Source: Artemia franciscana
Taxonomy: Eukaryota; Arthropoda; Branchiopoda; Anostraca; Artemiidae
Length of the DNA: 64,000 nt
Direction: 5' to 3'
Assembly (NCBI RefSeq): GCF_032884065.1
Contig: NC_088865.1
Span: 46,588,185 to 46,652,184 of the forward strand
In this document: positions 32,079 to 60,699 of the stretch, in pieces
Numbering within the stretch: position 1 is the first letter of the stretch
How the letters are laid out: every line of letters starts with the position of its first letter
Program-made: the position numbers and the translations under genes
The notes under the pieces: model-generated
Database searches by the model: none
What the model was told of the DNA's origin: nothing
What the model saw: only the letters and a program-made list of their open reading frames with translations

Positions 32079-32079
<1 letters not shown>

Positions 32080-33262: not shown

Positions 33263-33270
33263 AAACATAT

Positions 33271-33439
<169 letters not shown>

Positions 33440-35545: not shown

Positions 35546-35829
35546 ACCAAAGTTAAAACTCAAAACGAATAGAAGTTGTTCTGTGTGTGAGTGGAGTTAC
35601 CCTTTTTGCAACGCCAAATCTCTACGCTAAAGTTTAACTTTTGGAACCAACTTTATATAGTAGGCCTATACAAAACAAAAGTATTTTAAAAATAAAACAC
35701 TCTAACGTAAAAAGCGTGGGTTTCAGGAGGAAGCAGGCCTTTTCACATATGTTGTAAATAAAGTTTCAACTTTAATGTCTTATCTTACTTTCATTTAATT
35801 GTTTTTAATTTAATATGCGTCAGAAAAGT

Positions 35830-37250
35830 TTACTCTTTATGGAGGCATCAAGTCTAAAATTACCGATTGAAGTTCCAACCCAGAAACAGTCTGAAAACTG
35901 TCTGAAATACGTCTGAAAAACGTCAGAAAATAGTCTGCTTTTCATGGGGGCATCAAGTCTAAAATTACCGATTGAAGTATCAGCCTAGAAAAAGTCTGAA
36001 AACTGTCTGAAATACGTCTGAAAAACGTCAGAAAATAGTCTGATTTTCATGAGGGCATCAAGTCTAAAATTACCGATTGAAGTTTCAGCCCAGAAACAGT
36101 CTGAAAACTGTCTGAAATACGTCTGAAAACGTCAGAAAATAGTCTGCTTTTCATGGAGGCATCAAGTCTAAAATTACCGATTGAAGTTTCAACCCAGAAA
36201 CAGTCTGAAAACTGTCTGAACTACGTCTGAAAAACGTCAGAAAATAGTCTGCTTTTCATGGAGGCATCAAGTCTAAAACTACCGATTGAAGTTTCAGCCC
36301 AGAAACAATCTGACAATTGTCTGAAATACGTCTGAAAAACGTCTGACAACAGTCTGCTTTTCATGAGGGCATCAAGTCTAAAATTACCGATTGAAGTCTC
36401 AGCCCAGAAACAGTCTGAAAATTGTTTGAAATACGTCTGAAAAACGTCTGACAACAGTCGGCTTTTCATGGAGGCATCAAATCTAAAATTACCGATTGAA
36501 GTTTCAGCCCGGAAACAGTCTGAAAACTGTCTGAAATACGTCTGAAAAACGTCAGAAAATAGTCTGCTTTTCATGGGGGCATCAAGTCTAAAATTACTGA
36601 TTGAAGTATCAGCCTAGAAAAAGTCTGAAAACTGTCTGAAATACACCTGAAAAACGTCAGAAAACAGTCTGCTTTTCATGAGGGCATCAAGTCTAAAATT
36701 ACCGATTGAAGTTTCAGCCCAGAAACTGTCTGAAAACTGTCTGAAATACGTCTGAAAATGTCAGAAAATAGTCTGCTTTTCATGGAGGCATCAAGTCTAA
36801 AATTACCGATTGAAGTTTCAACCCAGAAATAGTCTGAAAACAGTCTGAAATACGTCTGAAAAACGTCAGAAAACAGTCTGCTTTTCATGGATGCATCAAG
36901 TCTAAAATTACCGATTGAAGTTTCAGCCCAGAAACAGTCTGAAAATTGTCTGAACTACGTCTGAAAAACGACTGACAACAGTCTGCTTTTCCTGAGGGTA
37001 TCAAGTCTAAAATTACCAATTGAAGTCTCAGCCCAGAAACAGTCTGACAATTGTCTGAAATACGTGTGAAAAACGTCTGACAACAGTCTGCTTTTCATGG
37101 AGGCATCAAGTCTAAAATTACCGATTGAAGTTTCAGCCCAGAAACAGTCTGAAAACTGTCTGAAATACGTCTGAAAAACGTCAGAAAACAGTCCGCTTTT
37201 CATGGAAGCATCATGTCTAAGAGTACCGATTGAAGTTTCATTCCAGAGAA
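35830..37250. repeat. 105-bp satellite with six-unit higher-order repeat
   Basis: GGAGGCATCAAGTCTAAAAT-type starts occur 14 times between 35841 and 37204 at about 105-bp steps. Each unit also contains an inner series of roughly 10-bp steps (GTCTGAAAAC). Units 2-7 match units 8-13 in their private variants. Units of 105 bp are 35 codons, so open frames of up to 117 codons appear on the minus strand, but 104-bp units break the frame. Confidence 0.9.
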
Positions 37251-37329: not shown

Positions 37330-38600
37330 AAGTTTCTTCAATTGAAAGTAAGGAGCAATATCAAAGCTAAAAAAAACGAAAATTGTTCTGTATATGAAGG
37401 GGTGGTCCACCTCATCAATTTCTGGCTCTTTACGATAAAGTTTTAAGCACCTATAAAAAAACTTCATAATCTTATTAAACGGCCCTTGTGTTTTAGTAGT
37501 TGTTCTCAAAAGTTGGTACAAACAGTCAAACTTTAGCGTAAACAGCAAGAGATTGAGGAGGGGGCAAAACTTTCATATACAGAAAAATTTCTGTTCGTTA
37601 TAAGTTTTAATGTTGCTCCTTGTTTTCAGTTGAAAACATTTGTTTGTTTTTTTTTTAATTAATATCCAATCGTTTTTTAAATAATGCATTTTAATCCGGT
37701 TAATCCTCCATCAAAATTTTCTCCTCACTCAGGAAACTCCTCCATAGAAAGTTTCTCCGACAGAAAATACAGCCCTCCGTAAAAATCCCTCTAGGTAATT
37801 CCATCATCGCTTAAAATCCCCCCTCCTTCATAAAATTTCTGTCGGGAAATTCAGCCTAAAAATTCTCCTTAGCATACATTCATTTGGAAAAGATTAAGTT
37901 GTAATCTTTTTTCCAAACACTCCGGATATCCCATTTGGGTGAAAATTATTCCCCCCAAATTCCAAACACGCTGAAAATTTCCCCAGACAATTTCCTCGGT
38001 ATATATATCCACATGTGAAATTGAGTTGGCAAAGAAAAAGTAAGACAAATAAAAAGAAATTTGTGTAGGAATTCTGTCAAACCCTCTTAGTGTTAAATTT
38101 CCCATGGAAAGTTCATCTTCTGAAATTTCTCTGCCAACAGAAAATTTTCCACATGGAAACCCACCCCAAGCACAAAATCCACCTTACAAAAATGTCGGTA
38201 TACTTCCTAGAAGTAAATACTATCCGCAAAGAACGGGCAATTTCATAGCTTACAGCCCTTTCCCTACTGGCTGTGGGGGATGTCATGTTACGCCTAAAGG
38301 GATAGATATTTGATCTTTCAACGATGCTGAACAAAATAGCAATCTCAACATTTTTATTAGACGACTTTGGGGAACACGGGGTGTAGGAGGGGGGCTAAGC
38401 GTCCTCCAGTATTTTGGTCACTTAAAAAGGGCAGTAGAACTTTTCATTTCCGTTCAAACGTATCCTCTTTTGATCTTCTAGTACCATTAGTTGATACAGT
38501 CCCCCCTCAGGAAAAAGGAAATAAACAAGCATCCATGATCTTTCCTATGGCAAAAAAAAAATGCAAAACTCCATATTGTTGTTTATTGGATTAAATAAAA
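37330..38600 (-). repeat. Diverged partial composite repeat, minus strand
   Basis: A hairpin of the TTTACGATAAAGTTTTAAGC / CAAACTTTAGCGTAAACAGC type lies at 37.33-37.65 kb. Reversed internal blocks follow ('gatatttgatctttcaacg', 'cagcccttt..ggctgtggggg', 'cacttaaaaagggcagtagaact'). A 'ccctccgtaaaaatccc' block at 37.7-38.1 kb is peculiar to this and the 42.3-kb copy. Confidence 0.7.
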
Positions 38601-38604
38601 ATAA

Positions 38605-40277
38605 AAGTTTTTTTAAATGAAAGTAAGGAGCGACATTAAAACTTAAAACGAACAGAAATTACCCGTATATGAAAGGGGCTTTTCCTCCTCAACGCCTCCC
38701 TCTGTACGCTAAAGTTTGACTCTTTCTCTTAGCTCTACTTTTTAAAAAAGGAAAAAACTTTAGCGTAAAGAGCGGAGCGTTGAGGAAGAAAAACCCCTTT
38801 CATATACGGAGTAATTTCTGTTCGTTTTAAGTTTTAATGTCGCTCCTTACTTTCATTTAAAAAAACTTTTTTTTTTATTTAATTTCTGGACGTTTTTTAA
38901 TTCATGCATGTTTTGATCTTGGCTCTCCGCACATAAATAATTAAAACGAAATTTGCATATTAATTTTCTTTTTGGCTAAATGGCTTTCTCATAGTTTTAA
39001 TCGGAAGATTTTGAGAAAAAAGGAGAGAGGGAGGAAGCCTAGATGCCCTCTAATTTTTTGATTACTTAAAAAGGCAACTAGAACTTTTAATTGTTTTACG
39101 GACATTTTCATTAGTAAAAAAATACGTAATTTACGAATTAACTTACGTAACGAACTTCTATCTTCGTATATTTTTATTGCGTATATGAGGGAGTTCACCC
39201 CTCGTCGATACCTCGCTCTATACACTAAAGTTTAAATTCTGTCCCAATTCCTTAAGAATGACCCTTGAATCACAAAGGCCGTAGAATAAATAGTTGAAAT
39301 TACTAAAAATACTTTCGCGTAAAGAGCGAGGTATCACGAGGAGGTAAACCCCTCATATGCACAATAATTTCTCCTCGTTTTAAGTTTTAATGCTGCTCCT
39401 CACTTTCAGTAGAAAAGACTTCAAATATTTTTTTCCTTGTTTTTTTAAATAATGCAAAAAATCCTGCGCCCCCTTCATTGAAAGTCTCTTCCCCCATGAG
39501 AAGTTTTTCCATGGAAAGATCCTCCCGCGTAACCCCACCTCAACTCTCCCTCCCAAACAAAAAAAAATCCCCCTGAAAACGTCCGTACACTTCCCAGTAA
39601 CCATTACTATAGGTGAACACAGGTCAAAGTTTGTAACTTGCAATCCCTCCCAGGGAGACTGCGGGGTAGTGAGTCGTCCCCGAGGACATAGTTGTTAGGT
39701 TTTTTGACTATGGTGAATAAAATGGCTATCTCAGAATTTTGATCCGGTGACTTTTGGGAAAAAATGAGCGTGGGAGGGGGCCTAGGCGCCCTCCAATTTT
39801 TTTGGTCACTTAAAAAGGGCACTAGAACTTTTGATTTCCGTTAGAATGAGCCCTCCTGAGACATTCTAGGACGACTGGGTCGACACGATCGTTCCTGGGA
39901 AAAAAAAAAAAAAAAAACAAATAAACACGCATCCGTGATTTGTCTTTTGGCAAAAAATGCGAAATTCTACATTTTTGTAGATAGGAGCTTGAAACTTCTG
40001 CAATAAGGTTCTCTGATACGCTGAATGGTGTGATTTTCCTTAAGATTGTATGACTTTTAGGGGGTGTTTTCCCCTATTTTCTAAAATGAGGCAAATTTTC
40101 TCAGGCTCGTAACTTTTGATAGGTCAGACTAATCTTGATAAAAGTTATATATTTGAAATCAGCATTAAAATGCGATTTTTTGATGTAGCTATTGGTATCA
40201 AAATTCCCTTTTTTGGAGTTTTGGTTACTATTGAGCCGGGTCGCTCCTTACTACAGTTCGTTACCATGAACTGTTTG
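38605..40277 (-). repeat. Composite non-coding repeat, copy D, minus strand
   Basis: A full-length reversed copy: hairpin B at 38.61-38.87 kb, the 'ttggctctccgcacataaat' block, hairpin A at about 39.17-39.41 kb, the internal blocks, and the tip hairpin CAGTTCGTTACCATGAACTG at 40254-40273 followed by TTTGATT. Confidence 0.85.
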
Positions 40278-40550
40278 ATTTTGAAACTTCTACAGTAGGA
40301 TTTCCTGATAAGCTGAATCTGATTATGTGAGTTGTATTTATCTTCTCTTTATCAAAAATCAGGCAAGTTTTCTCAGGCTCATAGCTTTTGACAGATGACA
40401 TTAAACCTAATGAATCTTGTATATTTGGAATCAGTATGATAAGCCAATTCTTTCGATGTATCTATTGATATCAAACTTCCGTTTTTTTAGAGTTTCAATT
40501 ACTATTGAGCCGAACCGCCCCCTAGTTCGTTACCACGAACTGTTTGATTA
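40278..40550 (-). repeat. Second tip fragment of the composite repeat
   Basis: A reversed 5'-end fragment ending TAGTTCGTTACCACGAACTG at 40523-40542 and TTTGATT. It is directly adjacent to copy D in the same orientation. Confidence 0.75.
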
Positions 40551-43830: not shown

Positions 43831-44669
43831 AAGAAGGGAACGGAAGGGGGAGGACATTTTCCTAATTTATACAAAACTTGTATTCTCAAGCTCTCGAATA
43901 AGGTGTCCTAATGAGGAATGAAAATTGCAAAAAATTTGGCTCTCAACAAAAACCAGCTGTTTGATTTGAAATCATAAGTTCTAGTCCCCTTTTCTAAGGA
44001 CAACAGAGATTTGTGGGCGACCAGTCGTACTCCCAAGTCCTATTCTGGTTCTCATTCCCTACCCCTGTCATCCCCCTCTATATGGTGGCAAACTTTCGAG
44101 ATAGTTACGATCCAGATCGTTGAAAGTGAGCATCTGAAATGTCTTGAGAAATGTTTGGGGTTAGAAGTTAGAACTTGAAGGTACAGACGTGGTAAATGAA
44201 GGAAAATTATGGGGCAAGAACACTTCAAATTTAAATTTGAGGGAATGGCGAAGGGGCTAAAAATTTTTGTCGCTTATCCACCAAAAGATTGTTGCACAAT
44301 AAGCTTCTGTAGGACTTATTATCTCTTAAAATCCAAATAGCGAAGCGCACAGAAAGACAGAATCCTAAGCCTTTCCAGCTTGGAAAATGATTTATCTGCT
44401 ATATATTGTGAACGGTTTGGGTATCGAACTAAAGATTTCAGCGATGGTTTAAAGAGCGGAGAGAGGCAAGTTAATGGTGGGCTGAGTTCTTAGAGAGAGG
44501 GTGCAGTTAAATCAAAAGACACCGTGTGCAAAAGCTATCAAAATATAAGCTGCACAAACGTTAGAATAGCCAAAAGGATTGAGTAGAAACTCTCCAACAC
44601 TTTTCGGTACTGTAGGAATGAAAGGGAAGGGTGACATAAGAAGACAAGGCCGTGTCAAGGGAATTAGAG
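43251..44669. other. Decayed repeat modules, no gene
   Basis: Includes 'tttgaaatcataagttctagtcccctttt' and 'gctatcaaaatataagctgcac', which recall older modules of the composite families. A (CT)n tract lies inside. No coding support. Confidence 0.4.
43773..43828. repeat. (CT)n microsatellite
   Basis: An almost pure CT run. The Arg/Glu open frame across it on the minus strand is an artefact. Confidence 0.9.
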
Positions 44670-44819
44670 TAGTGACAGCATTATGCTTTTAAGGGCAGCC
44701 CTATCTTATCGTGGGCAGCCCTATCTTATCGAATCCCAGTCCCAAAACTTTTTTTTAAACTTTTTCGAGATACAGGAATATGTTATGTAATAGGGTTTTA
44801 CGTAATACGAACGATTGTA

Positions 44820-45530
44820 AATACAGCCGTAGGAAGTTTTTAAAGGCAACCATAGGAAGGTTTTTATAGAAACATTTAGGAAGGTTTTTAAAGAAGCCCA
44901 TAAGAAGCTTTTAAAGGCAGCTATAGGGAGGTTTTTAAAGACATATAGAAAGTTTTTAAAGGCAGCCATAACAAGGCTTTTAAAAATACACATAAGAGGT
45001 TTTTAAAGGCAGCCATAGGAAGGTTTTTAGAGACACACATAGGTAGGTTTTTAAAGACACGCATAGGAAGGTTTTTAAACCACCCTTAGGAAGTTTTTAA
45101 AGGCAGGCATAGAAAGGTTTTAAGGATACACATAGGAAGGTTTTTAGAAAAACACATTGGAAGGTTTTTTAAACCAACCCATAGGAAGTTTCTAAAGGAA
45201 GTCATAGGAAGGTTTTTAAAGACACACGCATATTAAGTTTTTAAAGGCAGCCATAGTAAGGTTTTTACCGACTCACATAGGAAAACTTTTAAAGGCAGCC
45301 ATATGAAGTTTTTAAGGAAAGCCATAGGAAGGTTTTTAACACATACATAGGAAGTTTTTAAAGACAGCCGTATGAAGGTTTTTTAAAGACTTACATAAGA
45401 GGTTTTCAAAGGGAGTCATAGGAAGATTTTTGAAGAGAAAAAAGGAATGCTTTTAAAGGCAGCCATAGGAGGGTTCTTAAGAATAACAAAGGAAGATTTT
45501 TAGACACGCATAGGAAGGCTTTTAAAGACA
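44820..45530. repeat. Foldback arm module 1: 25-30 bp tandem array (left)
   Basis: More than 20 degenerate copies of CATAGGAAGGTTTTTAAAGA with ACACA or GGCAGC linkers. The mirror copy is at 55590-56120. Confidence 0.85.
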
Positions 45531-45889
45531 GGAGGTTGCGTAACTGGACTTGTTAGCATTCAGAGGGGCGGTAGTCAAGAAGCAAACGTAAGCGTTACAG
45601 CATAGGGAGGGTTTTTCTGGAGACATTTTTCAAGACATTTTTCAAGATGTTTCAAAACATTTCAAGAGGTTTTTGATGCTTTTTTCTTCAAGACGTTTCA
45701 AGACATTTAAAGACGTTTATTAAGACATTTTTCTTTAAAATGTCTTTTGAGACGTTTCGACACATTTGAAGATATTCATAAGACATTTTTCTTCAAGTCC
45801 TTTTTTAAGACGTTTCAAGCCATTTCAAGATGTTTTTAAAACATTTTTCTTCAAGCCCTCTTTTTCTTCAAGATTTCTTTGCTTATTAC

Positions 45890-46240
45890 GCAGTAGGAGA
45901 TTGTTTAGCTACTTTAAGGATTATGCAGCCTCGTGTGACATTCTAGACTTCAGGGGACCGTGGGGAGCCCCCGGTTGTAATTGAGGATAGCGCGCACTTG
46001 AGTGTTATGTAGGTACACCTTTATGTTACGTAATGGAAGATTGTTTACCAATGTTAAGGATGATTCCTTCTCACATGACTCGTTAGAGGTCAGGGTTCAC
46101 TGGTTAAGAGGGGAATCCCCGATCGTAACTTGGAGTAGCACACAGGTGGGGTATTACATACGTACACCTGTGTGTTGCGTAATAGGAGATTGTTTACCTA
46201 TTGCCCGTGATAATTCAAATACAGTGAGAAAATCGACTAT
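45890..46240. repeat. Foldback arm module 2: about 140-bp units (left)
   Basis: Units contain TTACGTAATAGGAGATTGTTTACC and a GTACACCT word. About two and a half units are present. The mirror copy is at about 55030-55350, where GGTAAGTAATCTCCTATTACG is readable. Confidence 0.75.
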
Positions 46241-46589
46241 TGGAAAATTGGTTACATTTGACACACACCTGCTTCTAACAATATTTTTGATTTTCTAACG
46301 TGATTTAGACATGTTAAGTTACAAAGGAGATGTTACATAGCATTGGCATTAGATATTTCATTACGTAACTGACTACGCATCCAAGTTTTATCCTGGAGCA
46401 TAAAATCTATAAGATACAAATTTTATCGTACATAAATGTTTATTATTAATAAAAATGAATTTATAAGCACTATTAAAACACAGAAAAAGCAATTAAAACA
46501 CCTCAAACAAAAAAAAACAAAACGTGAAAAACACTTATGAAGGATAAAATATAAGCACAAAAAAACAAGAATAAAAGACACGTGGTAAC

Positions 46590-46862
46590 TCTAGCAAGCA
46601 ATTCCGGCGGGGGCCTTAGCAAGCAAATCCACCGGGCCCTATAGTTCAGTCCCGCCAGGGCCTCTAGCATCCAATTAACCAGGACCCTTCAACTGGGTCC
46701 CTCTAGCAAGCTTCTCCCACGGGGGGGGGGGGGTTAGTGGCTAGTAAGCAATTCCAACAGAGCTTCTAGCAATCAATCCTATCGGGGCCCCCTAGCATCC
46801 AATTTCACCGAAACTCCTAGAAACCAATTCCACCGGGACCCTAGCAAGCATTTCCACTTGGG
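46590..46862. repeat. Foldback arm module 3: about 30-bp GC-richer array (left)
   Basis: Units of the type CTAGCAAGCAATTCCACCGG repeat about nine times. The mirror copy is at 51.21-51.45 kb (GGTGGAATTGCTTGCTAG type). Confidence 0.85.
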
Positions 46863-47486
46863 GATGGCAAATTTCAGCACCACCACATATCTAGAAAAAT
46901 CCAATTCTCTTTTTGAGGCAACTGCAGCGACTTATTGTGCAGCGATAAAACGGACATTTATTTTATCCAGAATTGAATCTACCGACGTCTTAAAAAGTGC
47001 TTGATCACTTTTCAATCAGTCATGACGGCTTAGAGGTGCTGAAGTACCAAGAAATTTACTTTGATGAGCAAAAAATGGCAAGCTGATTGAGCAAGCTATG
47101 GGATGACGATCATAAAATTGATAATTAAACGCAACCTTTGCTGTAGTGGCTAGTGAATCAATTAATAATGCAACATGATCCAAGTTGGAAGTTCGCAAGG
47201 ACTTATAACATGCTTAAAAAACCGTGATTAATCCCAATAGTCAAGAAATCGCTAAATATACGCTTAACCAAGTGTAATACGTGGCGACGCTTTAAAATAT
47301 GGCTACCCTCATCTGAAGACCCACCGAGAATTTAAAACGCACATTTTGACGCTTAAGGCACACTGCTCTACGAACCTTCACAAAGGACCACCAACCCTTC
47401 TCCACAATAGCTGAAACTCTATTATATACAACTGTACACGATTTTTTCAAGCCTCAACTGAATCATATAGTCATATGAAGCGTTAA

Positions 47487-48970
47487 AATAAATGTCTATG
47501 TTAGCCATTTATTTTGTAGGACTTCCTGCACCTTTAGAAACGAATACAAGTAACCGAATGGCATTACTGCCTCTGAAGCTAGACCCGCAATATGTGTATA
47601 CTTTTTCGATAATTCTAAATCAAATAACTATCTCACTGTTTTCACACATTAGCTTTTTTACCTTCTTTTCCCTAGAACTGTTTTTTCTACAACAAAATGG
47701 CTGAAAACACTGCATTACCGTGGGACAGTCTTTATGGCCTGAACAAATGTCTAAGTTAACAGTTTACTTTTCAAGACCACCTGCGTCTTTAGAAATGAAT
47801 GCACCTCTGCACGGCGCTACTGCCTCTGAAACTGGAAGTTCAAACTGTTTATCAACTTTCAATAGTTCTAGATTAATTGACTGTTTCAGAATTCTCACAC
47901 AATAGCTTTTTGGCCTTCTTTTGACTACAATTTTTACTTTGCACAACAAAAAGACTGAAAACACCGCGTTTCTGTGAGGCAGTCTTTTTCGGCAAAATAA
48001 ATATCTCTATTAAACATTTATTTTGAAGGACTACCTACACCTTTAGAAACCAATGCACCGCCGCACACAATTACTGCCTTTGAAAAAGGAGGCTCAATAT
48101 GTGTATTCATTTTTGGCAATGCTAAATCAATTGAATATCGCGAAATATTCACACAATACCTTTTTGGTCTTCTTTTGGGTAGAATTGTTGCTTTGCATCA
48201 CAAAATGGTTGAAAGCAAAAGCGTTGCTGCGAGACAATTTTCTTGGCCAAAATAAATATCTATGTTAGCCGTTATTTTGTAGGACGACCTCCGCCTTTAG
48301 AAACCAATGCGCCACTGTACAGTATTCCTGCCTCTGAAAATGGGGGCTCAATATGCGTGTAGATTTTTCATAATTCTAAATCAATTGGCTATCTCAAAAT
48401 TTTCATAATATAGCTTTTTGGAGTTCTTTTGGATAGAATTGTTGTTATACACCACAAAATGGTTGAAAACTCCACTTTGCTATGAAGAATCTTTTTGGAT
48501 AAAATAAACAACTATATTAACCGTTTATTCTGTGGGACTACCTGCAGCCTTAGAAACGAATGCGCCACCGTACAGCAGTACAGCCTCAGAAACAGGTGGC
48601 TCAACATGCATATAGTTTTTTGCTAATTCTAAATCAATTTACTATCTAAAAATTTCCACACAATACCATTTGGTCTACTTTTGGCTAAAATTATTGCTTT
48701 GCACTAAACAAAATGGTTGAAAATGTCAGTTCGGTGTTGGACAGTCTCTTTGACAAAAATAGATATCTTGGTTAACCGTTTATTTAGTAGGACTACCTGC
48801 ACCTTTAGAAAAGAACGCGCTACCGTACAGTACTACAGTCTCTGAAACTGGAGATTCAATATGTATATTTTTTTCCATCAATTTAATTCAATTGAGTATC
48901 TCAAAATTTTCAGACAATAGCTTTTTGGCCTTCTTTTTGCTAGAATTGTTGTTATGCACCATAGAATCCA
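47487..48970. repeat. Foldback arm module 4: about 254-bp units (left, six units)
   Basis: TAAATATCTATGTTAGCCG-type starts lie at about 47487, 47743, 47996, 48249, 48501 and 48755. Each is followed by GGACTACCTGCACCTTTAGA and a TTTTGGCCTTCTTTT word. The last unit is cut by the spacer. Confidence 0.9.
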
Positions 48971-49689
48971 CTATACTATTTACCATTTACCATTTACACA
49001 GTTTACCTAGACAAGGATACCATCTATCCCTATTTCTACCGAACTGGCCGATAATATACAGCAAGTTTCACGGAGAAAACAAAATCAAGATACAAAAAGT
49101 TTCAGAGTAAAAAAATCAACATGCAACTAGTTTCATGAACAAAATTTAATATACAATAAGTGTCTTGAAGAAAAACTGAAAAATACAACAGGTTTTTCGA
49201 CTAATAAAATTAGTCTACAACAAGTTTCACGAGGAAAAATTAACCTAAACGAAGCTTCACAAAGAAGGAACCATCACATGTTATGTTCACGAACAATAAA
49301 TTAGCATACAATAAGTTCCACGAACGTTAACGAACGTGCAAGATGTTTCATGAAGAAAAATATCAAGATAATCTAAGTTTCACGAAAGAAAATGCAAGAG
49401 GTTTTACGAAGAAATAACCAACATACAACATGTTTAATGAACAAAAAATCAACATGCAACTAGTTTCATGATGAGGAAAAAATCAACTTAGAACAAAAAA
49501 ATCAATATGCAACAAGTTGCATAAAGAAAAAATCAACGTAAATAAACTTTGATGAAGATAAAATAAAAATACAACAAGTTTCATGAAGAAAAATTCACAT
49601 TCAATAAGTTTCAAGAAGAAAATATTTGAATACAATAAGTTTCACGAAGAAGAAAATTGACATACATTGGCATGTTTTGAAATTTTGAA
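48971..49689. repeat. Foldback spacer: about 30-bp AT-rich tandem
   Basis: Repeated 'caacaagtttcacgaagaaaa' and 'atcaacat' words, about 20 degenerate copies. It is direct, not inverted, and forms the loop between the arms. Confidence 0.8.
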
Positions 49690-50585
49690 ATAGTCAATTG
49701 ATTCAAAAAACTATACGTATATTGAGCCTCCTGTTTAAGAGGCACCAATACCGTACGGTGGCGTAATCATTTCTAAAGGAGCAGGTAGTCCTACAAAATA
49801 AACGGTTAACATAGACATTTATTTCAGCCAAAAAGTCTGTCCCATAGCAAAGTGGCGTTTTCAACCATTTTGTGATGCATAACAACATTTCTAGCCAAAA
49901 AAATGGAAAAAAGCTATTGCGTGAAAATTCTGAAATAGTCATTTGATTTAAAATTATCAAAAATCCATACGCATATTGTGTCTCCAATTTCAGAGGCAGT
50001 ACTGCTGTACGGGGGTGCATTCATTTCTAAGGGTACAGGTAGTCCTACAAAATAAAGGATTAACATAGACATTTATTTTCGCAAAAAAGACTGCCCCACA
50101 GTAAAGCGGCATCTTCAGCCGATTTGTGGTGCAAAACAACAATATTAGTCAAAAGAAGGCCAAAAAACTGTTCTATGAAAATTCCGAGATAGTTAATTGA
50201 TATATAATTATCGAAAAACAATGCGCATACTGAGTCTGACTTTCCAAAGGAGTTATGCCTTACGATCGCGTATTTGTTTCTAAAGGTGCAGGTAGTTCTA
50301 AAAAAAACGGTTAACATAGATGTTTATTTAGCAAAAAAATATCTAACGGGAAAACAGCTTTTTCAGCCATTTTGTGGTGCAAAACAACAATTCTAGCCAA
50401 AAGAAGGCCAAAAACTATGGTTTGAAAATTCTTAGATAGTCAATTGATTTAGGATTATCGAAAAGCTATACGCATATTTAGCGTCTAGTTTCAGAGACAA
50501 TAATGCCGTACGGTCGGCGCATTCGGTTCTAAAGGTACAGGTAGTCCTACAAATTAAACGGATAACATAGCCTTTAATTTTAACA
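49690..50585. repeat. Foldback arm module 4 (right, about 3.5 inverted units)
   Basis: TCTAAAGGTGCAGGTAGTCC-type words and ACGGTTAACATAGACATTTA mark starts at about 49802, 50058, 50308 and 50558. There are fewer units than on the left, so the two arms changed copy number independently. Confidence 0.9.
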
Positions 50586-51209
50586 CTTCATATGACTAGA
50601 TGATTCAGTTGAGACTTGAAAAATTGTCTAGAGTTGTATATAATATAGCTTCTGCTATTATGGAGAAGGGTAGGTGGGTCTTTGCATAAGTTCAGGGATG
50701 AGTACACTTTAAGCGTCAAAAAAAGCGTTTCTGATTCTTGCTTGGTCTTCAGATGAACGTAGCCAAAATCTTCAAGAGTTACTACTTACAACACTATGTT
50801 ATGGGTATATTGAGTGATTTCTTGATTGTTCCGATTAAACGCGTAATTTTACGTATTTTATAAGTCCTTGTGAACTTCCAACTTGGATCGTGTTGCAGTA
50901 TCGAGTGGTTTGCAAGCCAATACAGTAAACGTCGTGGTTATCAATTGTCGGATCCTCATCCTATAGCCTGCTCAATCATTTTACCATCTTTTGGCAATCA
51001 AAGCAAATCTCTTGGTCCTTAAGCATCCCTGTACCGTCATGACTGGTCGAAAATCAGCCAAGCGCCTTTTACCGTGTCGATAGATTCAATTCTGGATAAG
51101 AAAAGCGTCCCTTTCTATCACCTTCAGACGTCTCTCCAGTTGCCCCAAAAGAATATAGGATTTTTCTAGATATGTGCTGGTGCTGAAATTTACCATTCCC
51201 CATTGTAAT

Positions 51210-51452
51210 TGGTTGCTAGGGCCTCGGTGGAATTGGGTTTTAAGGGCCTAGTAGAATTGAATGCTAAGGGACCCAGTGAGATGGAGTGCTAGGGGCCTCA
51301 GTGGAATTCCTTGCTAGACACCCCCCTCCCCGGTAGAAAAGGTTGCTAGGAACCCGGTGGAATTGGATAATTGGGAGCCCGGTGGGAGTAAATGCTAAGG
51401 TCCTGGTGGGATTGCTTGATAGGGCCCCCACTGGAATTGCTTGCTAGAGTTT
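51210..51452. repeat. Foldback arm module 3 (right)
   Basis: GGTGGAATTG..TGCTAGGGCC-type units, the mirror of 46.59-46.86 kb. Confidence 0.8.
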
Positions 51453-51658
51453 CTACCATTCCTTAATTGGGGTTCTTTTTGTTTATATTTTATCCTTTAT
51501 AAGCTTTATTTGCGTTTATTTCTGTTTGTTGTGTTTTAATTGCTTTTTCTGTGTCTTAAAAATGCCTAGGAACTTTTTTTTATCAAAAATAAATCGTTTA
51601 TGTGTGATAAAAGTTTGTATCTTTTAGATTTCTTGTTCTAGCATAAAACATCGATACA

Positions 51659-51669
51659 TAATCATTTAC
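51659..51669 (+). repeat. Target-site duplication, left copy (RTE insertion)
   Basis: TAATCATTTAC lies next to the 3' end of the RTE element and recurs at 54857. The uninterrupted left arm of the foldback element has the single-copy counterpart near 46,375-46,390. Confidence 0.8.
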
Positions 51670-51701
51670 CTTACCTTAGGTTCTCCATAGCCAGGGGTGG
51701 C

Positions 51702-53508
51702 TCATAGGGCGTCTACGAAACCTCGCCATACATCTCGGAGCTGAGCTGCCGCAGTGACGTCCTCCCTTTGTGGTTGAAGAGGCATCCCCGAATTGCTCAG
51801 GTCTCGGTCGTACTGTCGTCGTAAGGTGTGTCTTTGTCAACCTCTTTTTCTCCTCCCCTCGGGGTGCCACTCATATACTGTATTAGAGAGTCGATCCTCT
51901 GGCATACGAAGGACGTCGCCAAGGTATTTCCAGCTCCTAATTTTCAGAAGGTCAGTAACTAATGGCTGACAGGTGCGTCGGCAAACTTCTATGTTGGTGA
52001 GCTTTCCCCGCCACGATATGTCCAGGATTCTTCTAAGGCGCATGTTTTCAAAGACTAGGACACGTTTTTCCAGTTGGGTGTTTAGTTTCCAGTATTCACT
52101 AGCATAGAAAAGGATGGACATCACATTGCTTTTCAGGAAGCGGGGATTCAAGCGCATGGAGTATTAACTACTGCGCCAGAATGGTTTCATCTTGCTAAAA
52201 GCCGATGACGCTTGTCCAATTTCCCTCTTGATTTCGTTGGCTATTTCACCATCATATTCAATCCAACTCCCGAGATACTTTAATTCCTTGACCTGCTCAA
52301 TTGTTTTATCTTTGCATTTTAGTATCAACGGTGAGTCAGATGTGGCCTTAATCTTTGTTTTAATAAAATTTGCTGCAAATCCGATTTTCTCGGCTTTTTC
52401 ATCTACGGCGTCGAGTAGCAGCTGCAGTTGGAGTTTCGCTTCTTCAAGAAGAACAACGTCATATGCGAAGTCCAGATCAGAGATCTATCGACTGCTAATC
52501 TTCACTCCAATGCCTGAAGACTCCCGTAGAATATAGTCCATTACAATGACAAACAGAAACGGAGACAGCACACACTTTGTTTGACACCAGACATTATCTT
52601 GAAGAAACGTGTGTCCCCATTTTCAGTGCAAACACAGCATTCACTATCCTCATATAGTGCAATTATCATTCTGACTAGTTTATCACGTACTTCATAATAT
52701 TTCAAAATCTTGCATAAAGTGTCTCGGTTAACAGAATCGAACATCTTCTCAAAATCAATGAAGAGCAGGTATAGCGTTTTGTTCCATTCTCTAGACTCTT
52801 CCACCATCAGTCTAAGAATGAAATTAAGATCAGAGCAAGACCTAACTGGTCGGAACCCGTGTTGCTCTTCCCTGAGGTGTGAGACAAGGGCTGTTCTTAG
52901 GCGTTGTAATATGACTGAGGCTAGTACTGTACTAGGCACAGACGCCAAGTTGATACCCCTCCAATTGTCATAAATTTGTGCATCGCCTTTCTTGAAGAGT
53001 TTGACCAGTGAACCTCTGATCCAATCTTTTGGGACTTTTTTGTTGTTCCAGATAGCCACTAGAAGAGCACTCCATACAAATATGCAAGCTCAAAGGGACG
53101 CTTTCAGCATATCTACCGTAATCCCATCGACTCGAGGTGCATTTCCATTTTTCAGCTTTTTCACACCTGTCGTCACTTCTTCCATGTTTTTTTTTGGGGG
53201 GGGGGGCAGTCAGCACTTACGTCAATTTGTAAAAATGGCGTATCCGGTACTGTTTCTGGATCATCAGGTTTGGGCCTATTTAAGACTCTCTCAAAATGTG
53301 AAGCCCATCTCTCATCAGCTTTCTGCGGATCCGAAATAACGTATCCATTTTCATCTTTTACAAGGGATGTACGATTTGTTTTCTTTCCAACTATCTCGTT
53401 TGTTAATCGATAAACCATTTTCGAGTCTCCTTTCTTTGCAGATTCTTCTACAAACGCTGCTTTTCTCTCGATGGCAATTCTTTTGTCTTTCCTGGCACTT
53501 CTTTTCAC
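51702..53508 (-). pseudogene. RTE reverse transcriptase, frameshifted, catalytic Asp lost
   Basis: Readable blocks: WASHFERVLNRP, VPKDWIRGSLVKLFKKGD, NWRGINLASVPS, EEQHGFRPVRSCSDLNFIL, LLFIDFEKMFDSVNRD (motif A), MSGVKQ (motif B, frame lost next) and DLDFAYDVVLL (motif C, near 52455). Motif C should be FADD, and here the first Asp is Tyr (TAT). The C-terminal part reads RILDISWRGKLTN, WKYLGDVLRMPEDRL and DLSNSGMP..AQLRDVWRGFVDAL, then the stop. Stops also occur near 52494 and 52160. Confidence 0.85.
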
Positions 53509-53652
53509 AGCTTTATCCTCTTCTTTGTAACAGACCTGTAATTGGGCTTTTCACTCAGGGCTCGACGTATTCAGGATAAGCGTTCGGGTCTATTTGCGTT
53601 TAATAATGTATTTTAAGGTGTCATCCGATATCCGTTCTTCTTTCTTTCTTTT

Positions 53653-54649
53653 CTAGTAGCCAAGGTTGGCCTTCGCAAGGCCATGGTACACACTCTTGAA
53701 TGAGGTCCACGTGTTCTCAACATCAAAGTCATCGGCTTCGTCGAGCAGTTTTAACGCTTCAAATCTATTATGTAGCGATATGCAAAGGTTTTTGCAGATG
53801 TCAGGATCTTTCAGCTCCTCGATGTCAAATTGTGTATGTGTTGCGGCGTTAGTTTTCCGGTTCTGAGCTTTCAGTTTGATTCCTACTTTGGCTATCATCA
53901 GGATGTGATCTGAATTAAAATTCGCTTCTCGAAAGCCCCTCACGTCATATAGGCTACTTTTACAACGTCTTGACACGAGGAAATGGTCAATTTGATTCTT
54001 CGTTCGGCCGTCGAGGGACGCCCACGTGTACTTGTGATTCGTCTTACGGTCGAACATACTACCGCCTATTACCAAATCGTTACTTAGTGCATAATCGATT
54101 AGAAGTGTACCGTTCTCATTTATCTCCCCCATGCCATGTGTACCCAGAACTGCACCGACTTTAGGTCTGCACCGACTTTAGCATTTAGATCGCCAACCAC
54201 ACAGAGTATATCATGTCTGATGACGTCTTTGATGGCCGAGTGTAGCATGTTATAGAAAAAATCTTTCTCCTCTTCATCAGCTTCGTTAGTTGGAGCGTAG
54301 CAGGTGATGATGGTCATTTTGTGTGATTTGACACGAAGCGAGCTGTCATTATACGTCCGTTAACTGGGTTCCAGTTTGTCATTGCTTTGTGTGTAAGTGG
54401 CGACATCGGAATTTCTACACCTGCGCGGTGGACAGAAGGGTGACCACTAAATGCCATGGCATATGGATCACTGAACTTCTCTAATCCATTTCCAGTCCAC
54501 CTTATTTCACTGAGAACGAGTATATCAATGAGGTATTGTCTTATCTCTTTAACAACTTGCTCTGTCTTCGATATCTGGTTCATCATTCTCACGTTCCAAA
54601 AGCCCATCTTTAGATTCTGTTTCGCAGTCGAAAATCGGGTCCGGGGCAA
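53653..54649 (-). pseudogene. RTE endonuclease domain, frameshifted
   Basis: Minus-strand motifs in order: KMGFWNVRMMNQ near the start, ILVLSEIRWTGNG with the catalytic Glu, TIITCYAPTNEADEE, CVVGDLNAKVG, KYTWASLDGRTKNQIDHFLV and ANFNSDHILMIAKV. These are the endonuclease/exonuclease/phosphatase blocks in the form usual for RTE elements. The frame changes near 54.31 and 54.13 kb. A short repeated phrase ('gcaccgactttag', 54150-54180) marks the second break and is probably a local duplication. Confidence 0.85.
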
Positions 54650-54856
54650 GCAGGAGTCATTATTTGGGGAGGTAATGTGTCCGAGGCTGTTATATACGTT
54701 TCAGTTGCAGTTGTCTTTCCCCCGAGGGTTGCCCCTCAAGGTCCCGGGTGTGGGTTGTAGGCCCACAGCCCAACCTTCCTCCTTTGTGGACTTGGGACCA
54801 TCATACTCCCCCGACCTGTTTGAGGCAAGGATCCTTACATGGTTGAGTTAAAATCG

Positions 54857-54867
54857 TAATCATTTAC
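54857..54867 (+). repeat. Target-site duplication, right copy (RTE insertion)
   Basis: TAATCATTTAC, identical to 51659-51669. It lies at the 5' end of the RTE. Confidence 0.8.
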
Positions 54868-55029
54868 TTAATGAAATATCTAACGCTAGTTCTGCGTAAC
54901 ATCTGTTATTTAACTTAACCTGTCTAGGTCACGGGAGAAAAATAATAACATTGTAAGAAGCAGGTTTGCGTCAAATGTAACCAAATTTCCAGTTATTGAT
55001 TTTCTTCCTATATGTGTATTATCGCGGGC

Positions 55030-55350
55030 GATAGGTAATCAATTTCCTATTATATAATATGCAGGTGTACGGATGTAGCGCACCATGGGTGTGATACATC
55101 CAGTTACAACCGAAGATTCTCCACTTGACTGGTGGACCCTAACCCTTAACGAATCATTTGAGAATGCGTCATCCTTAAAATTGGTAAGTAATCTCCTATT
55201 ACGTAACGTGAAGGTGTACGTACGTAACACCCACGTGTGCGCTATCTTCAGTTGCAACTGGGGGCTTCCCCATGGGCCCCTGAAGTCTAGCATGTCACGG
55301 GAGATTGTGTCATCCTTAACATAAGTGAACAATCTCGTACTACGTAACAA
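55030..55350. repeat. Foldback arm module 2 (right)
   Basis: Contains AATCTCCTATTACGTAACGTG and GTCATCCTTAAC words, the reverse complement of 45.89-46.24 kb. Confidence 0.75.
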
Positions 55351-55589
55351 GCAAAGAAATCTTGAAGAAAAAATGGCATAAAGAAAAATGTCTTAAAAGA
55401 TATATTTAAATTTCTTGAAACGTCTTGAAAAACATTTTGAAGAAAAATGTCTTACAAAACGTCTTGAAACATCTTGGAAAACGTCTTGAAAAGTGTCTTG
55501 AAGAAAACACACCCCATTAAGTAACACTTGCGTTTGCTTCTTGACTAGCGCGCCCCGGAATTCTAAAAATTCCTTTTACGTGGCATCCT

Positions 55590-56120
55590 GTCTTTAAAGG
55601 CCTTTCTATGCATGTCTTTAAAGGCCTTTCTATGCATGTCTTTAAAAGCCTTCCTATATGTGTCTAAAAACCTTCCTATGACTGCCTTTAAAAGCATTCC
55701 AAGGGTTTCCTTTATAAATTTCCTATGGGTAGGTTTAAAAACCTTCCAATATGTGTCTGTAAAAACCTTCCTATGTGTGTCTAAAAATCTTCCTATGGTT
55801 TCCGTTATAATCTTCCTATGGGTTGGTTTAAACATCTTCTTATGTATGTCTTTAAAAAGCTTCCTATGTCTGTCTTTGAAAATCTTCCTATGGCTGTTGT
55901 GTCTTTAAAAACCTTCCTATGGCTGCCCTTAAAAGCTTCTTATGGGTCTGTTTAAGACCTTCCTATATGGGTCTATAAAAACCTTCCTACGCGTGCCTTT
56001 AAAAACCTTCCTATTGCTGCCTTTAAAAACTTCCTATGGGCTAGTGTAAAAAACTTCTTATGCGTGTCCTTAAAAAAATTCCTATGGCTGCCTTTACAAG
56101 CATTCATATTACGTAGCATC
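55590..56120. repeat. Foldback arm module 1 (right)
   Basis: About 18 copies of TCTTTAAAAACCTTCCTATG with G/TGTGT or GCTGCC linkers, the mirror of 44.82-45.53 kb. Confidence 0.85.
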
Positions 56121-56223
56121 CTATTACATATCATACAGCAGGGTCTTGTAGAAGTTTAAAAAAAGTGTCAGGACTGAGAATCCAAGGAATAGGGCTTCCA
56201 TTAAAAGCATTACGCTGTCACTA

Positions 56224-57189
56224 TTAATTAGGGGTTTGACCCCCCCCCCCCCCCAAAAAAAATGGCCATCCGACTCGTAAAAAACATAACAAAAAGGAAT
56301 ATAAACAAGTTTTTAATAAATTTTATCAGTTTTTTTTTTGCGAACCTACCCCCCCCCCCCCTCGTCCCGAAAAAGTTCTCTTGTAACCAAAAAAAAAACA
56401 ATAAGGCCCTGTAAGGAAAGATCCAATTTTGAGTTTGGGGAGGGGAAAAGGGCTATAATATTAGGTCTCTGATGATTCGAAACTTTTACGCAATGTTTAT
56501 CCAGTTCATGAAATTGCTGCATTTGGTATATTCTAGAAAAGCTTTGGGCTTGGAGTCGAATCTTTCAAGTTGTGTAAGAAAAGGAAAGGGGGAGGAGCAA
56601 GGGGACTTCAAATTTTTAATCGGGAAACCTTACAACTGTGAAACCTCCGATCCACATAAACATTATTGCACAAAATGAGTTCTAATTTAGTCAGGTCTGA
56701 GTATTGAAGTAAAAAGCACTTGAGCAAAAACACTGTACAAATGTTTCTAATATTAGTCAAAACTGAATTTTGTCAATTAAAAAGAAACGAAAGACAAATT
56801 TTCAAAATATTTTTTAAAAAGAATAAGTTTATAAAATAAAAGTAAAAAGCCAAGTCCCACAATAATGGCCTAAAACGAACAGAAGTTTCCATCATGAATA
56901 AATGAAGCCCAACACGACCAAAAATTTAACAAAGAATCACATCCAACATTAAAAGAACTTATGCTGCTATAGATAAATAAATGAATCCTATAATGAACAG
57001 AAACTAAAATGAACAATCCAGTCTAATTTGAAAAGACCTCAAAATATCACGAACAGGATGCCTCCTCCTAGGCATCATAAAAGCCATGGCGCAAGTTCCG
57101 TTTATTTTAGGTTTTAATGTCATTCTTATCTTTGATTTTCTTAAAGCTGTTTTTTTGTATTATTTAGTTGAATTATACCTATGATAGGC
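56224..57189. other. No gene recognised; poly-C runs and decayed repeat
   Basis: Two long C runs (about 56239-56254 and 56350-56360) lie just outside the foldback element. At 56.87-57.14 kb words such as 'aaaacgaacagaa' and 'aataaatgaa' recall the inverted repeats at 9 and 34 kb. No coding region is supported. Confidence 0.4.
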
Positions 57190-57740: not shown

Positions 57741-58128
57741 AAAAATAAAACAAGAAAACAATAGTTCCTGGATCTTTCCTTGATTTGCAACTTTAGACGG
57801 TCAAAATCTTTTCAGCATTGCGGCAAAAAACTGTCAATAATATCACGAGTTTTTGTAAATTACATTCACGTCTTATTTTCTTTAAATATCCTTCAGATTT
57901 TTAATATTTGTATATATTTCAAAAAAGATATTTCACAAGTAATTGGATACATTTTCAATCTGAAAAACACCAACAATAACATACTCCATCGACTCTTATC
58001 TAGCAGATTTGGGAGTTGACACTATTAGAGCACACATTTTAACAAACCTAGTTTAGCCACAATCAACTCTTTTTATTCAAAGTAGAACAGAATTAACGCA
58101 CCTTTGCGTTATCAACTCAATAAGTGTT
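57741..58128. other. No gene recognised
   Basis: AT-rich. A 79-codon frame at 57780-58019 shows no domain. Confidence 0.35.
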
Positions 58129-59620
58129 CAAACAGTTCGTGGGAACGAACTGTAGTAAGCAGCGACCCGGCTCAATACAAACCAAAACTCAAAAAAATGC
58201 AATTTTGATACCAAGAGCTACATCAAAAGAATTGCATTTTAATGCTGATTTTAAATATATATATATATAAGTTTCATCAAGTTTAGTCTTACCCATCAAA
58301 AGTTGAGAGCCCGAGAAAATTTGCCTTATTTTAGAAAACAAGGGGAAAAACCCCCTAAAAGTCATATAAGCTTAACGAAAATCACACCATCCGATTCAGC
58401 ATATCAGAGAACCCCATTATAGAAGTTTCAAGCTCCTATCTACAAAAATGTGGAATTTTGTACTTTTTGCCAGAAGGCAGATCACGGATGCGTGTTTATT
58501 TATTTGTTTGTTTTTTTTTGTTTTTGTTTTTCAGGGGTGATCGTATCGACCCAGTGGTCCTAGAATGTTGCGAGAGGGCTCATTCTAACGGAAATGAAAA
58601 GTTCTAGTGCCCTTTTTAAGTGACCCAAAAAATTGGAGGGCACCTACGACCTCTCCCACGCTAATTATTTTCCCAAAGTCCACGGATCAAAATTCTGAGA
58701 TAGCCATTTTATTCAGTATAGTCGAAAAACATATTAACTATGACTTTGGGGACAACTTAATCCCCCACAGTCCCCGTGGGAGGGGCTACAAGTTACAAAC
58801 TTTGACCATTGCTTACATATAGTAATGGTTATTGGGAAGTGTACAGACGTTTTCAGGATTTTTTTGGTTGGGGGATGTGTTGAGAAGAGGGGGATATATT
58901 GGGAAAACTTTCCATCGAGGAATTTGTCATGGGGGAAGAAAATTTCCATGAAGGGAGCTGAGGATTTTCTAGCATTATTTAAAGAGCAATGAAAAATGAA
59001 TATGAAAAAGTTTTTTCAACTGGAAGTAAGGAGTAGCATTAAAATTTAAAACGAACATAAATTATTACGCATATGAGGGGCTCACCTCCTCCTAATACTT
59101 CGCTCTTCACGCTAAAGTATTTTTAGTAATTTCAACTATTTATTCTACGGCTTTTGTGATTCAAGGGTCATTCTTAATGAATTGGGACAAAGTTTAAGCT
59201 TTAGTGTAAAGAGTGAGGTACTGACTAGGGGGTGAACCCCCTCATATATGTAATAAAAACATGAGAATACAAAAGTTTGTTACGTGAGCTAATTTATAAG
59301 TTACGTATATCTTTTACTAAAAAAAACATTCGTAAAAAATTAAAAGTTCCATTTGCCTTTTAAGTAACCGAAAAATCAGAGGGCAACTAGGCTTCTTCTC
59401 CCGCTCTTTTTTTTTCTCAAAATCATTCGATCAAAACTATGAGAATGCCATTTAGCCAAAAAAATAAATATGCATATTTCGTTTTAATTATTCCTCTTCG
59501 GAGAGCCAAAATCAAAACATGCATTAATCCAAAAACGTTCAGAAATTAAATAAAAAAAAAGTTTTTTGAACTGAAAGTAAGGAGAGACATTAAAACTTAA
59601 AACGAACAGAAATTACTTAA
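58129..59620 (+). repeat. Composite non-coding repeat, copy E (3' truncated)
   Basis: Starts CAAACAGTTCGTGGGAACGAACTG, has all internal blocks and hairpin A (about 59.02-59.25 kb), and stops within the left arm of hairpin B (AACAGAAATTACT, 59.61 kb) before intron sequence of the glycine-rich peptide gene. The right arm is absent. Confidence 0.8.
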
Positions 59621-60498
59621 TAGCTGTATGCAAAATATATACAATAGAGATGTAATTTTGATTGCTTTGATAACTGTTGTAAATAAATAATCATAACTAT
59701 ACGAAAATAACTAATAGGTTAATAATCATACCTAAATAGGATTTACTTAATAATTCCCTATTGTAGCACTTCTGAAACAGAGCCCTACAAAGAAGTGCTC
59801 TGCAGGCAAATTGTGACCAGATTAAAAATAATTGCAAAGCTAATTGTAAAGCTAAAAGTAATTTTGTCTATCTTACAGGTTCTGCTTTTCTTCACTATAA
59901 GTTACGTATATCTTTTACTAATAAAAACATTCGTAAAAAATTAAAAGTTCTATTTGCCTTTTAAGTAACCGAAAAATCAGAGGGCAACTAGGCTTCTTCT
60001 CCCGCTCTTTTTTTTCTCAAAATCATTCGATCAAAACTATGAGAATGCCATTTAGCCAAAAAAATAAATATGCATATTTCGTTTTAATTATTCCTCTTCG
60101 GAGAGCCAAAATCAAAACATGCATTAATCCAAAAACGTTCAGAAATTAAATAAAAAAAAAAGTTTTTTTGAACTGAAAGTAAGGAGAGACATTAAAACTT
60201 AAAACGAACAGAAATTACTTAATAGCTGTATGCAAAATATATACAATAGAGATGTAATTTTGATTGCTTTGATAACTGTTGTAAATAAATAATCATAACT
60301 ATACGAAAATAACTAATAGGTTAATAATCATACCTAAATAGGATTTACTTAATAATTCCCTATTGTAGCACTTCTGAAACAGAGCCCTACAAAGAAGTGC
60401 TCTGCAGGCAAATCGTGACCAGATTAAAAATAATTGCAAAGCTAATTGTAAAGCTAAAAGTAATTTTGTCTATCTTACAGGTTCTGCTTTTCTTCACT
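59296..60498 (+). repeat. 602-bp tandem duplication including a splice acceptor
   Basis: Copy 1 (59296 to about 59897) and copy 2 (about 59897-60498) are nearly identical. For example, GCTGTATGCAAAATATATAC begins at 59624 and 60226. Both end with TTACAGGTTCTGCTTTTCTT and CACTAT. The junction has a 3-base overlap (TAT). Few differences indicate a recent event. Confidence 0.9.
59879..59950 (+). pseudogene. Truncated duplicate of glycine-rich peptide 2 exon
   Basis: After a normal acceptor (TCTTACAG, 59871-59878) it codes VLLFFT and then runs into repeat sequence where the real exon continues MITVTTAQ. It meets a stop within about 22 codons. A transcript spliced here would make only a hydrophobic stub. 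Confidence 0.65.
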
Positions 60499-60699
60499 AT
60501 GATAACTGTTACTACCGCCCAATTCGGGCTTGGAAGTCTGCTTGGTGGCCTGGGAGGAGGAGGCTTACTTGGCGGAGGCCTCAGCCAGGGCTTTGGAGGT
60601 GGATTGAGACCTGGTTTGGGAGGTGGCTTCAGGCGTGGATTTGGAGGTGGTTTAAGACGTGGATTTGGAGGTGGTTTCAGACGAGGATTTGGAAGATAA
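60481..60699 (+). CDS. Glycine-rich secreted peptide 2, main exon
   Basis: Follows acceptor TATCTTACAG in phase 0 and runs to TAA, 72 residues. VLLFFTMITVTTA finishes a signal peptide, with cleavage likely before Gln. The mature part is almost all Gly, Leu, Arg and Phe: FGLGSLLGGLGGGGLLGGG, then GFGGGLRPGL and repeats of the form GGGFRRGF / GGGLRRGF, ending GFGR. It matches peptide 1 in exon phase, signal-peptide pattern (LFF..TVxTAQ) and the -FGR end, but lacks the acidic middle part and has Arg-Arg in place of Tyr-Arg-Pro. A cationic glycine-rich antimicrobial peptide is possible, as is a structural role. The open frame extends upstream only to a GTG at 60397, so the start must come from another exon, perhaps 41,035. 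Confidence 0.7.
   Translation, partial: VLLFFTMITVTTAQFGLGSLLGGLGGGGLLGGGLSQGFGGGLRPGLGGGFRRGFGGGLRRGFGGGFRRGFGR

Follow-up and report, generated by a model that had tools for sequence, protein, structure and literature searches.

Polintons, also known as Mavericks, are thought to copy as linear, protein-primed molecules like adenovirus, a view largely inferred from their genes and end motifs. Foldback/Galileo, Mutator-like element (MULE) and hAT families generate target-site duplications (TSDs) of 7–9 bp. In the parts of the literature drawn on here, Foldback, Galileo (P superfamily), Tetris and Mutator/Foldback Tm1 are described as having long inverted arms of tandem repeats with little or no coding sequence. 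For vertebrate Mavericks, the parts of the published account drawn on here (PMC8097293) give a TSD of 6 bp, end motifs that include (AGT)2 or (AG)3, with (AGT)2//(ACT)2 the commonest among intact elements, and terminal inverted repeats (TIRs) of 46–1447 bp. Here, we describe an 11,558-bp palindromic element in a 64,000-nucleotide stretch of Artemia franciscana DNA (assembly GCF_032884065.1, contig NC_088865.1, positions 46,588,185 to 46,652,184 of the forward strand), which we refer to as "the window". We estimate a probability of roughly 0.85 that this element is a non-autonomous, gene-less Polinton/Maverick derivative, i.e., a satellite that gene-bearing Polintons sharing its ends would mobilise in trans.

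The element extends from position 44668 to position 56225 of the window, 2 bp further at each end than in the original prediction, which was made from the sequence without database searches. A chain of collinear mirror blocks, obtained by self-comparison, covers 58% of the element at 73% identity. The blocks pair 45015–46377 with 56109–54855 (71%) and 46365–48402 with 51669–49680 (75%), and the terminal repeats fall outside both. The same chain test applied to one base-shuffled version of the element gave 0 bp of mirror. The left arm (44668–48967, 4.3 kb) and the right arm (49681–56225, 3.3 kb once an insertion is subtracted) have the same order from the outside inward: terminal repeat, ~24-bp array, 10–12-bp array, block D with an A-rich stretch, 25-bp array, block G and 254-bp array. 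They surround a central 0.7-kb spacer built of 31-bp direct repeats, referred to as "J31" (Table 1). Tandem Repeats Finder (TRF) identifies four arrays common to both arms (~24 bp, 10–12/58 bp, 25 bp and 254 bp), and it counts 5.8 units of the 254-bp repeat on the left vs 3.5 on the right. Self-comparison, TRF and the shuffled control thus establish that the predicted 11.55-kb imperfect palindrome is real, with arms of ~4.3 and ~3.3 kb, mirrored modules and a 0.7-kb spacer; the unequal number of 254-bp units is likewise confirmed. The right arm is interrupted by an insertion of 3.2 kb that contains a reverse-transcriptase domain. This insertion is a non-LTR (lacking long terminal repeats), RTE-like element, with "RTE" being the label of the original prediction only. 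Outside it lie seven open reading frames (ORFs) of at least 90 aa (stop to stop), none of which matches a Pfam family at E≤0.1, as expected for an element predicted to have no coding capacity.

The ends of the element are those of a Polinton. Read inward, they are AGTAGT on the left and AATAGT on the right, such that (AGT)2 is exact on the left and has one mismatch on the right. The 6 bp on either side of the element are identical, AATTAG; this duplication has the TSD length of Polintons/Mavericks, and because it is exact, we conclude that the element inserted as one unit. Used as a genome query, the first 151 bp identified 30 places, the window included, and yielded paired inverted ends, as anticipated. 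We fetched 20 of the other 29 TIR loci with their flanks; two pairs share flanks, leaving 18 independent insertions. The consensus of 26 aligned end sequences is AGTAGTGA; next come ~25 variable bp and then a conserved core. A 23-bp terminal-repeat core occurs at 170 places in the genome with ≤2 mismatches, compared with 0 for the reversed control. With the boundary set by the end motif, 12 elements have both ends known, the window element among them. Their flanking 6-mers are identical at 57/72 positions, as against 15–28/72 at 14 other offsets and a mean of 22 and a maximum of 38 of 72 in 2000 permutations with shuffled pairings. Flank identity is 79% at a length of 6 vs 27% at 5 and 35% at 7 (0.29–0.35 at lengths 7–9). 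A further copy described below, L050, adds an exact TSD, TACTAC. From the 12 pairs and L050, the TSD is 6 bp rather than the 7–9 bp that had been expected.

The same terminal repeats are found on gene-bearing Polintons of the same genome. Polinton coding sequence, decayed and collinear, is present in 6/20 TIR loci (L011, L014, L015, L022, L024 and L025). In the first five, matches to inner ORFs of L025 follow its order, while the 14 remaining loci show no match to the 108 inner ORFs of L025 at E≤1e-5. L025 is 14.05 kb long, with both ends present, TIRs that are 75.7% identical and a TSD conserved at 5/6 positions. Pfam gave only sub-threshold matches for six gene pieces from L022, L024 and L025; an L025 ORF matches PF03175 at E 2.8e-4, under the curated cut-off. 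Kinship with Polintons was instead shown using tblastn with open frames from the "C14 element", a Polinton described below, whose open PolB frame matches PF03175 at E 2.2e-27. L025 aligns with this PolB frame at 25% identity across 675 aa (E 4e-31), and it matches the ATPase-like frame of the same Polinton at E 7e-39; L015 matches PolB too (E 7e-31), and L022 also gives a match. The ATPase label is a weak one, its basis being a GPSMSGKS motif together with a match to Pox_A32 below the cut-off (PF04665, E 0.0012). A protein search with the C14 PolB returned 38 proteins, 23–31% identical, some of them marked PF03175 and none named Polinton, and the same query gave 0 matches at E≤1 among PDB sequences. 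L024, at 4.03 kb, is a plain internal-deletion form of the family; it retains coding remnants homologous to L025, one of which is presumably capsid-like. Long-ORF lengths were tabulated for 20 TIR loci and ORF letters for 14; a Pfam scan of 13 ORF pieces from 4 of these loci found no P/THAP, hAT or MULE transposase domain. Where a P-, hAT- or MULE-type transposase had been expected, relatives with the same ends show homology to Polinton PolB and ATPase.

Because six of the 20 loci with the shared ends contain decayed Polinton genes, we regard the ends of the window element's family, on sequence grounds, as Polinton ends. The window element itself has no Polinton genes that we could detect: tblastn with the ORFs of the C14 element found nothing, tblastn with ORFs from 8 TIR loci found only TIR frames and the RTE part, and these searches together with Pfam on the seven ORFs found no PolB, integrase, ATPase, protease or capsid gene. 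Since it has Polinton ends and no genes, we file it as a gene-less derivative and not as a Polinton proper. We infer that replication of a linear form began at the (AGT)2 ends and depended on the protein-primed DNA polymerase of a Polinton, and that a Polinton integrase inserted the element.

Other copies share this construction in whole or in part. L050 is a complete second copy of 8,188 bp, the first 31 bp of which are 97% identical to those of the window element. Its modules are arranged in the order TIR-A24-D-E-F25-G-H254-J31-H254-G-F-E-D-A24, with only 70 bp of the right G found. The element had been proposed to be transposable, and both the exact 6-bp TSD and this second genomic copy, alike in ends and in module order, bear that out. 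L051 has parts of the same module order and a weak left end (E 4.7e-4). The D, E and 25-bp modules are common to 11/20 TIR loci; L028 has only the 25-bp module. A genome search with block G, in which 40 of 203 candidates were scored, gave 40 matches including the two in the window, with the other 38 at 74–80% identity; L050 and L051 were drawn from these 38. The two G blocks of the window are 76% identical to each other. The chain test, applied to nine elements, gave mirror fractions of 5% for the gene-bearing L025, 13–14% for L028 and L024, 26% for L012, 34% for L009, and 44–58% for L019, L013, L027 and the window element. Three further observations concern these loci. Relative to the longer 254-bp array, the J31 spacer has opposite orientations in the window (48968–49680) and L050 (5434–6742), as though the loop had been inverted between the arms across the two full copies. 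L021 contains a very long field of 31-bp repeats in both orientations (4815–9901), adjoining a terminal repeat; this is possibly an amplified spacer turning into satellite DNA. Lastly, a dihydrofolate reductase frame, open over its full length, lies downstream of two terminal repeats with common flanks, i.e., in a duplicated segment (L016, 4893–5525; L017, from 3061). The L016 reductase matches an A. franciscana protein without a single difference across 200 aa.

The inverted arms of nine elements are 73–81% identical, and the 6-bp TSDs are 79% identical over the 12 pairs. Because arms and TSDs have decayed to a similar degree, the arms of each copy were probably alike when it inserted, which fits the earlier proposal that the arms evolve separately. 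In the window, the left G block is as close to other loci (74–80%) as to its own mirror (76%); the palindrome is therefore about as old as the spread of the family, or older.

Younger palindromes occur among gene-bearing Polintons. A genome search with PolB, in which 91 of 154 candidates were scored, gave 44 matches; among these, two pairs, picked by eye, converge within 10 kb, and both are palindromes. The first, the C14 element (G000:C14:18488410-18502695; L030 and L031), is a young gene-bearing palindromic Polinton of a lineage other than that of the window element. It is 14,286 bp long, with AGTAGT at both ends. Its arms have 193 mismatches in 7202 ungapped columns (97.3% identity) and seven indel runs, figures that come from a separate alignment, as the chain test excludes blocks crossing the centre and scores this element at 29% mirror. 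The PolB-ATPase part is doubled, and each arm has an open PolB frame, of 787 aa in one and 865 aa in the other. Six relatives, covering 2.2–2.4 kb each around the turn, follow one arm to ...CTATAGCACTCT and then diverge into other sequence. At this point the C14 element switches to the complement of the strand just upstream, with the turn at GCAAGAGT. The turn sites in the six relatives, AGAGTCCTATACTTT and AAAACTATAGCACTCT, are complementary at 13/15 positions and lie some 35 bases apart; one relative has a changed base at the turn site (CACTAT). A 30-bp junction pattern, allowing ≤3 mismatches, occurs at 37 places: once as the turn itself and 36 times as the ordinary upstream arm. Copying that reversed direction at short complementary sites would produce such a join. 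That the C14 element is a folded-read artefact is unlikely, as the flanks beyond the surrounding (TA)n tract differ in layout and most differences between the arms are substitutions; part of the flanking sequence does occur on both sides, in direct orientation.

The second, the C3 element (G000:C3:51992299-52002766; L032 and L033), is another palindromic gene-bearing Polinton (96.9% identity). A further insertion, apparently non-LTR, interrupts its right end. The C3 element turns near the same place as the C14 element, but onto a site 3.8 kb away via a short filler. A turn shared by both elements was ruled out: the C14 turn was found once only, making C3 a separate event.

By analogy with the C14 element, copying in an ancestor of the window element may have turned back on itself at short complementary sites, either by the end of a strand snapping back or by a switch to the opposite strand. 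Such a turn would leave the same end on both sides of a loop, here the 31-bp spacer, and the tandem arrays would afterwards have grown and shrunk independently in each arm. Symmetric defective adenovirus genomes likewise have one end repeated on both sides of a loop. We tentatively suggest, as a possibility rated below even odds, that Polintons in this genome throw off "defective-interfering-like" genomes, which are symmetric, have two good ends and have lost their genes, and which would be copied and integrated in trans and found gene-less palindromic satellite families. Palindrome families spreading from Polintons could then be likened to the defective or satellite genomes of adenovirus-like viruses.

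Alternatively, the element could be the same Polinton satellite with a palindrome made otherwise, by stepwise inward extension of the TIRs (through gene conversion or recombination involving the two ends) or by two copies recombining. We consider this origin doubtful, though a serious contender. The graded mirror lengths in gene-less or gene-poor copies, from 13–14% to 44–58%, are what stepwise growth would give, and the complex C3 turn with its filler and the lack of a stable hairpin at the C14 sites also suit it. Against it, the C14 element, albeit of another lineage, has a single turn that joins two sites complementary at 13/15 positions and ~35 bases apart in six relatives.

Several points weigh against a Polinton satellite whose palindrome arose by a turn during copying. 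(i) Mobilisation in trans would rest on the shared ends and the TSD length; no intact gene-bearing copy of the window's TIR lineage was seen among the loci examined, and the fetched gene-bearing copies share the TIR alone with the window element, not the arm modules. (ii) The TSD is imperfect in 9/12 pairs: three pairs score 6/6, four 5/6, four 4/6 (L012, L019, C1 and C5) and one 3/6 (L013), and two of five further TIR pairs (C8 and C9), each with one unrecognisable end, are left out of this count. (iii) Divergence of the window palindrome has gone too far for its own turn to be visible; as its G blocks resemble each other (76%) no more than they resemble those at other loci (74–80%), its birth is unreadable from this copy, and a turn during copying would be extrapolated from the C14 element, of another lineage. 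(iv) The C14 element sits inside a (TA)n tract, which makes its TATATA duplication uninformative. (v) The C14 stem is the minimum-energy fold in 2/6 relatives with RNA parameters and in 0/6 with DNA parameters, under which no relative clearly outdoes its shuffled versions in folding (z of −0.2 to −1.25). Folding thus rules out a stable hairpin, so the C14 sites attest the join, and strand fold-back and strand switch are indistinguishable there. (vi) The C3 turn, with its filler, looks multi-step.

The remaining alternatives fare far worse. The original prediction of a foldback-type transposon stands as regards the foldback shape and modular construction, and long inverted arms of tandem repeats are what a true Foldback/Galileo, MULE or hAT-type element would have. 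It is nevertheless very unlikely that the element belongs to such a family, given the 6-bp TSD, the (AGT)2 ends and the same-end copies with Polinton PolB and ATPase homology. Equally improbable is a fusion, by deletion, of two insertions of a smaller element in opposite orientations. The two G blocks in the window are the only close mirrored pair among the 40 scored G matches (163 candidates were unscored), which would suit a fusion; L050 is absent as a pair because its right G is mostly deleted. However, the outer 6-mers of the window element are identical, which has a chance of 1/4096 if the four bases are equally frequent, and the order recurs in L050, where an exact TSD is again present. 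Missed adapters in PacBio Sequel reads can create palindromes. The assembly was made from such long reads, according to the part of the genome paper drawn on here (PMC11492255), but an assembly artefact or a local inverted duplication is scarcely credible for arms that differ by ~25%, with an exact TSD and a second copy elsewhere that has the same order and its own TSD.

Table 1. Features of the palindromic element, in window coordinates (strand "." where none applies)
Feature	Positions	Strand	Details
Left TSD, AATTAG	44662..44667	.	Identical to 56226-56231
Left terminal repeat	44668..44822	+	Starts AGTAGTGACAGC, (AGT)2 first; contains the family core, window version GAATCCCAGTCCCAAAACTTTTT
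Left ~24-bp array	44823..45535	+	CATAGGAAGGTTTTTAAAGACA-like; TRF 44824-45530
Left 10-12/58-bp array	45621..45870	+	TTCAAGACATTT-like; TRF 45621-45864
Left block D (unique) and block E (A-rich)	45871..46590	+	Present in other gene-less copies
Left ~25-bp array	46591..46870	+	CCTAGCAACCAATTCCACCGG-like; TRF 46790-46857
Left unique block G	46871..47480	+	Dispersed repeat of the genome
Left 254-bp array, 5.8 units	47485..48959	+	TRF
Central spacer, 31-bp direct repeats (J31)	48968..49680	.	TRF 49056-49161 and 49496-49666
Right 254-bp array, 3.5 units	49703..50582	-	TRF
Right block G	50586..51195	-	76% to left G
Right 25-bp array and block E	51196..51658	-	Self-comparison; TRF 51241-51308
Later non-LTR (RTE-like) insertion with its TSD, foreign to the element	51659..54867	-	PF00078, E 1.8e-12; own 11-bp TSD TAATCATTTAC at 51659-51669 and 54857-54867
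Right block D	54868..55360	-	78% complementary
Right 10-12/59-bp array	55361..55535	-	TRF 55381-55507
Right ~24-bp array	55586..56105	-	TRF 55589-56086
Right terminal repeat	56106..56225	-	Ends ...GCTGTCACTATT; terminal model match 56132-56224, E 2.8e-21, this end being one of the 26 behind the model
Right TSD, AATTAG	56226..56231	.	Identical to 44662-44667

The window contains several other repetitive features. A 1.0–1.7-kb repeat is present in many copies with 68–89% identity (12492–13486, 15360–17065, 20310–21944, 28578–30312, 38573–40279, 58128–59618 and others), several of which end in a ~300-bp self-inverted stretch (e.g., 16749–17047). The region 31531–33587 is foldback-like, with nested palindromes (arms 31531–31844/32780–32445, 79%), 19- and 27-bp arrays and a long (TA)n tract. 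A tandem array at 35818–37247 consists of 13.7 copies of a 105-bp unit, within which there are sub-repeats of 11 and 22 bp. Glycine-rich open frames with GGGYRPGF/GGGFRRGF repeats at 26395–26850 and 60328–60699 are possibly secreted host proteins.

Compared with described systems, the window element is like vertebrate Mavericks in its (AGT)2 end motif and 6-bp TSD, and it shares its TIR family with PolB/ATPase-bearing copies in the same genome. It differs from the vertebrate elements, at least from the TIR lengths given in the portion of PMC8097293 cited above, in its 3.3–4.3-kb arms, internal tandem arrays and lack of genes. From Foldback, Galileo, Tetris and Mutator/Foldback Tm1, as described in the portions of the literature cited above, it differs in TSD length, end sequence and the source of the mobilising enzyme. 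Miniature inverted-repeat transposable elements (MITEs) and internally deleted DNA transposons are, like the window element, gene-less, with ends common to an autonomous partner; they differ in size, and the window element is palindromic, with a Polinton partner. In the symmetric defective genomes of adenovirus and protein-primed linear replicons, one end is inverted-duplicated around a short loop and the sequence beyond the turn is lost, as in the C14 element; unlike them, the elements described here are integrated in an animal genome, and the window family is gene-less and old. No paper on symmetric defective adenovirus-type genomes was found in the literature searched. The element had been put forward as undescribed, and it has no described counterpart in that literature: no non-autonomous or palindromic Polinton/Maverick family, or Polinton MITE, was found, although most subscription papers and Repbase lay outside its scope, making this weak evidence of absence. 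The word "Maverick" is absent from the A. franciscana genome paper (PMC11492255), at least from its main text.

A young integrated palindrome that turns at sites complementary in its relatives preserves, in its sequence, the trace of copying that turned back by folding or switching. The gene-less family of the window element shows that Polinton-ended mirror forms are able to turn into dispersed repeats. A foldback shape does not mark one transposon superfamily, and other unexplained foldback elements are worth checking for 6-bp duplications and AGT-AGT ends.

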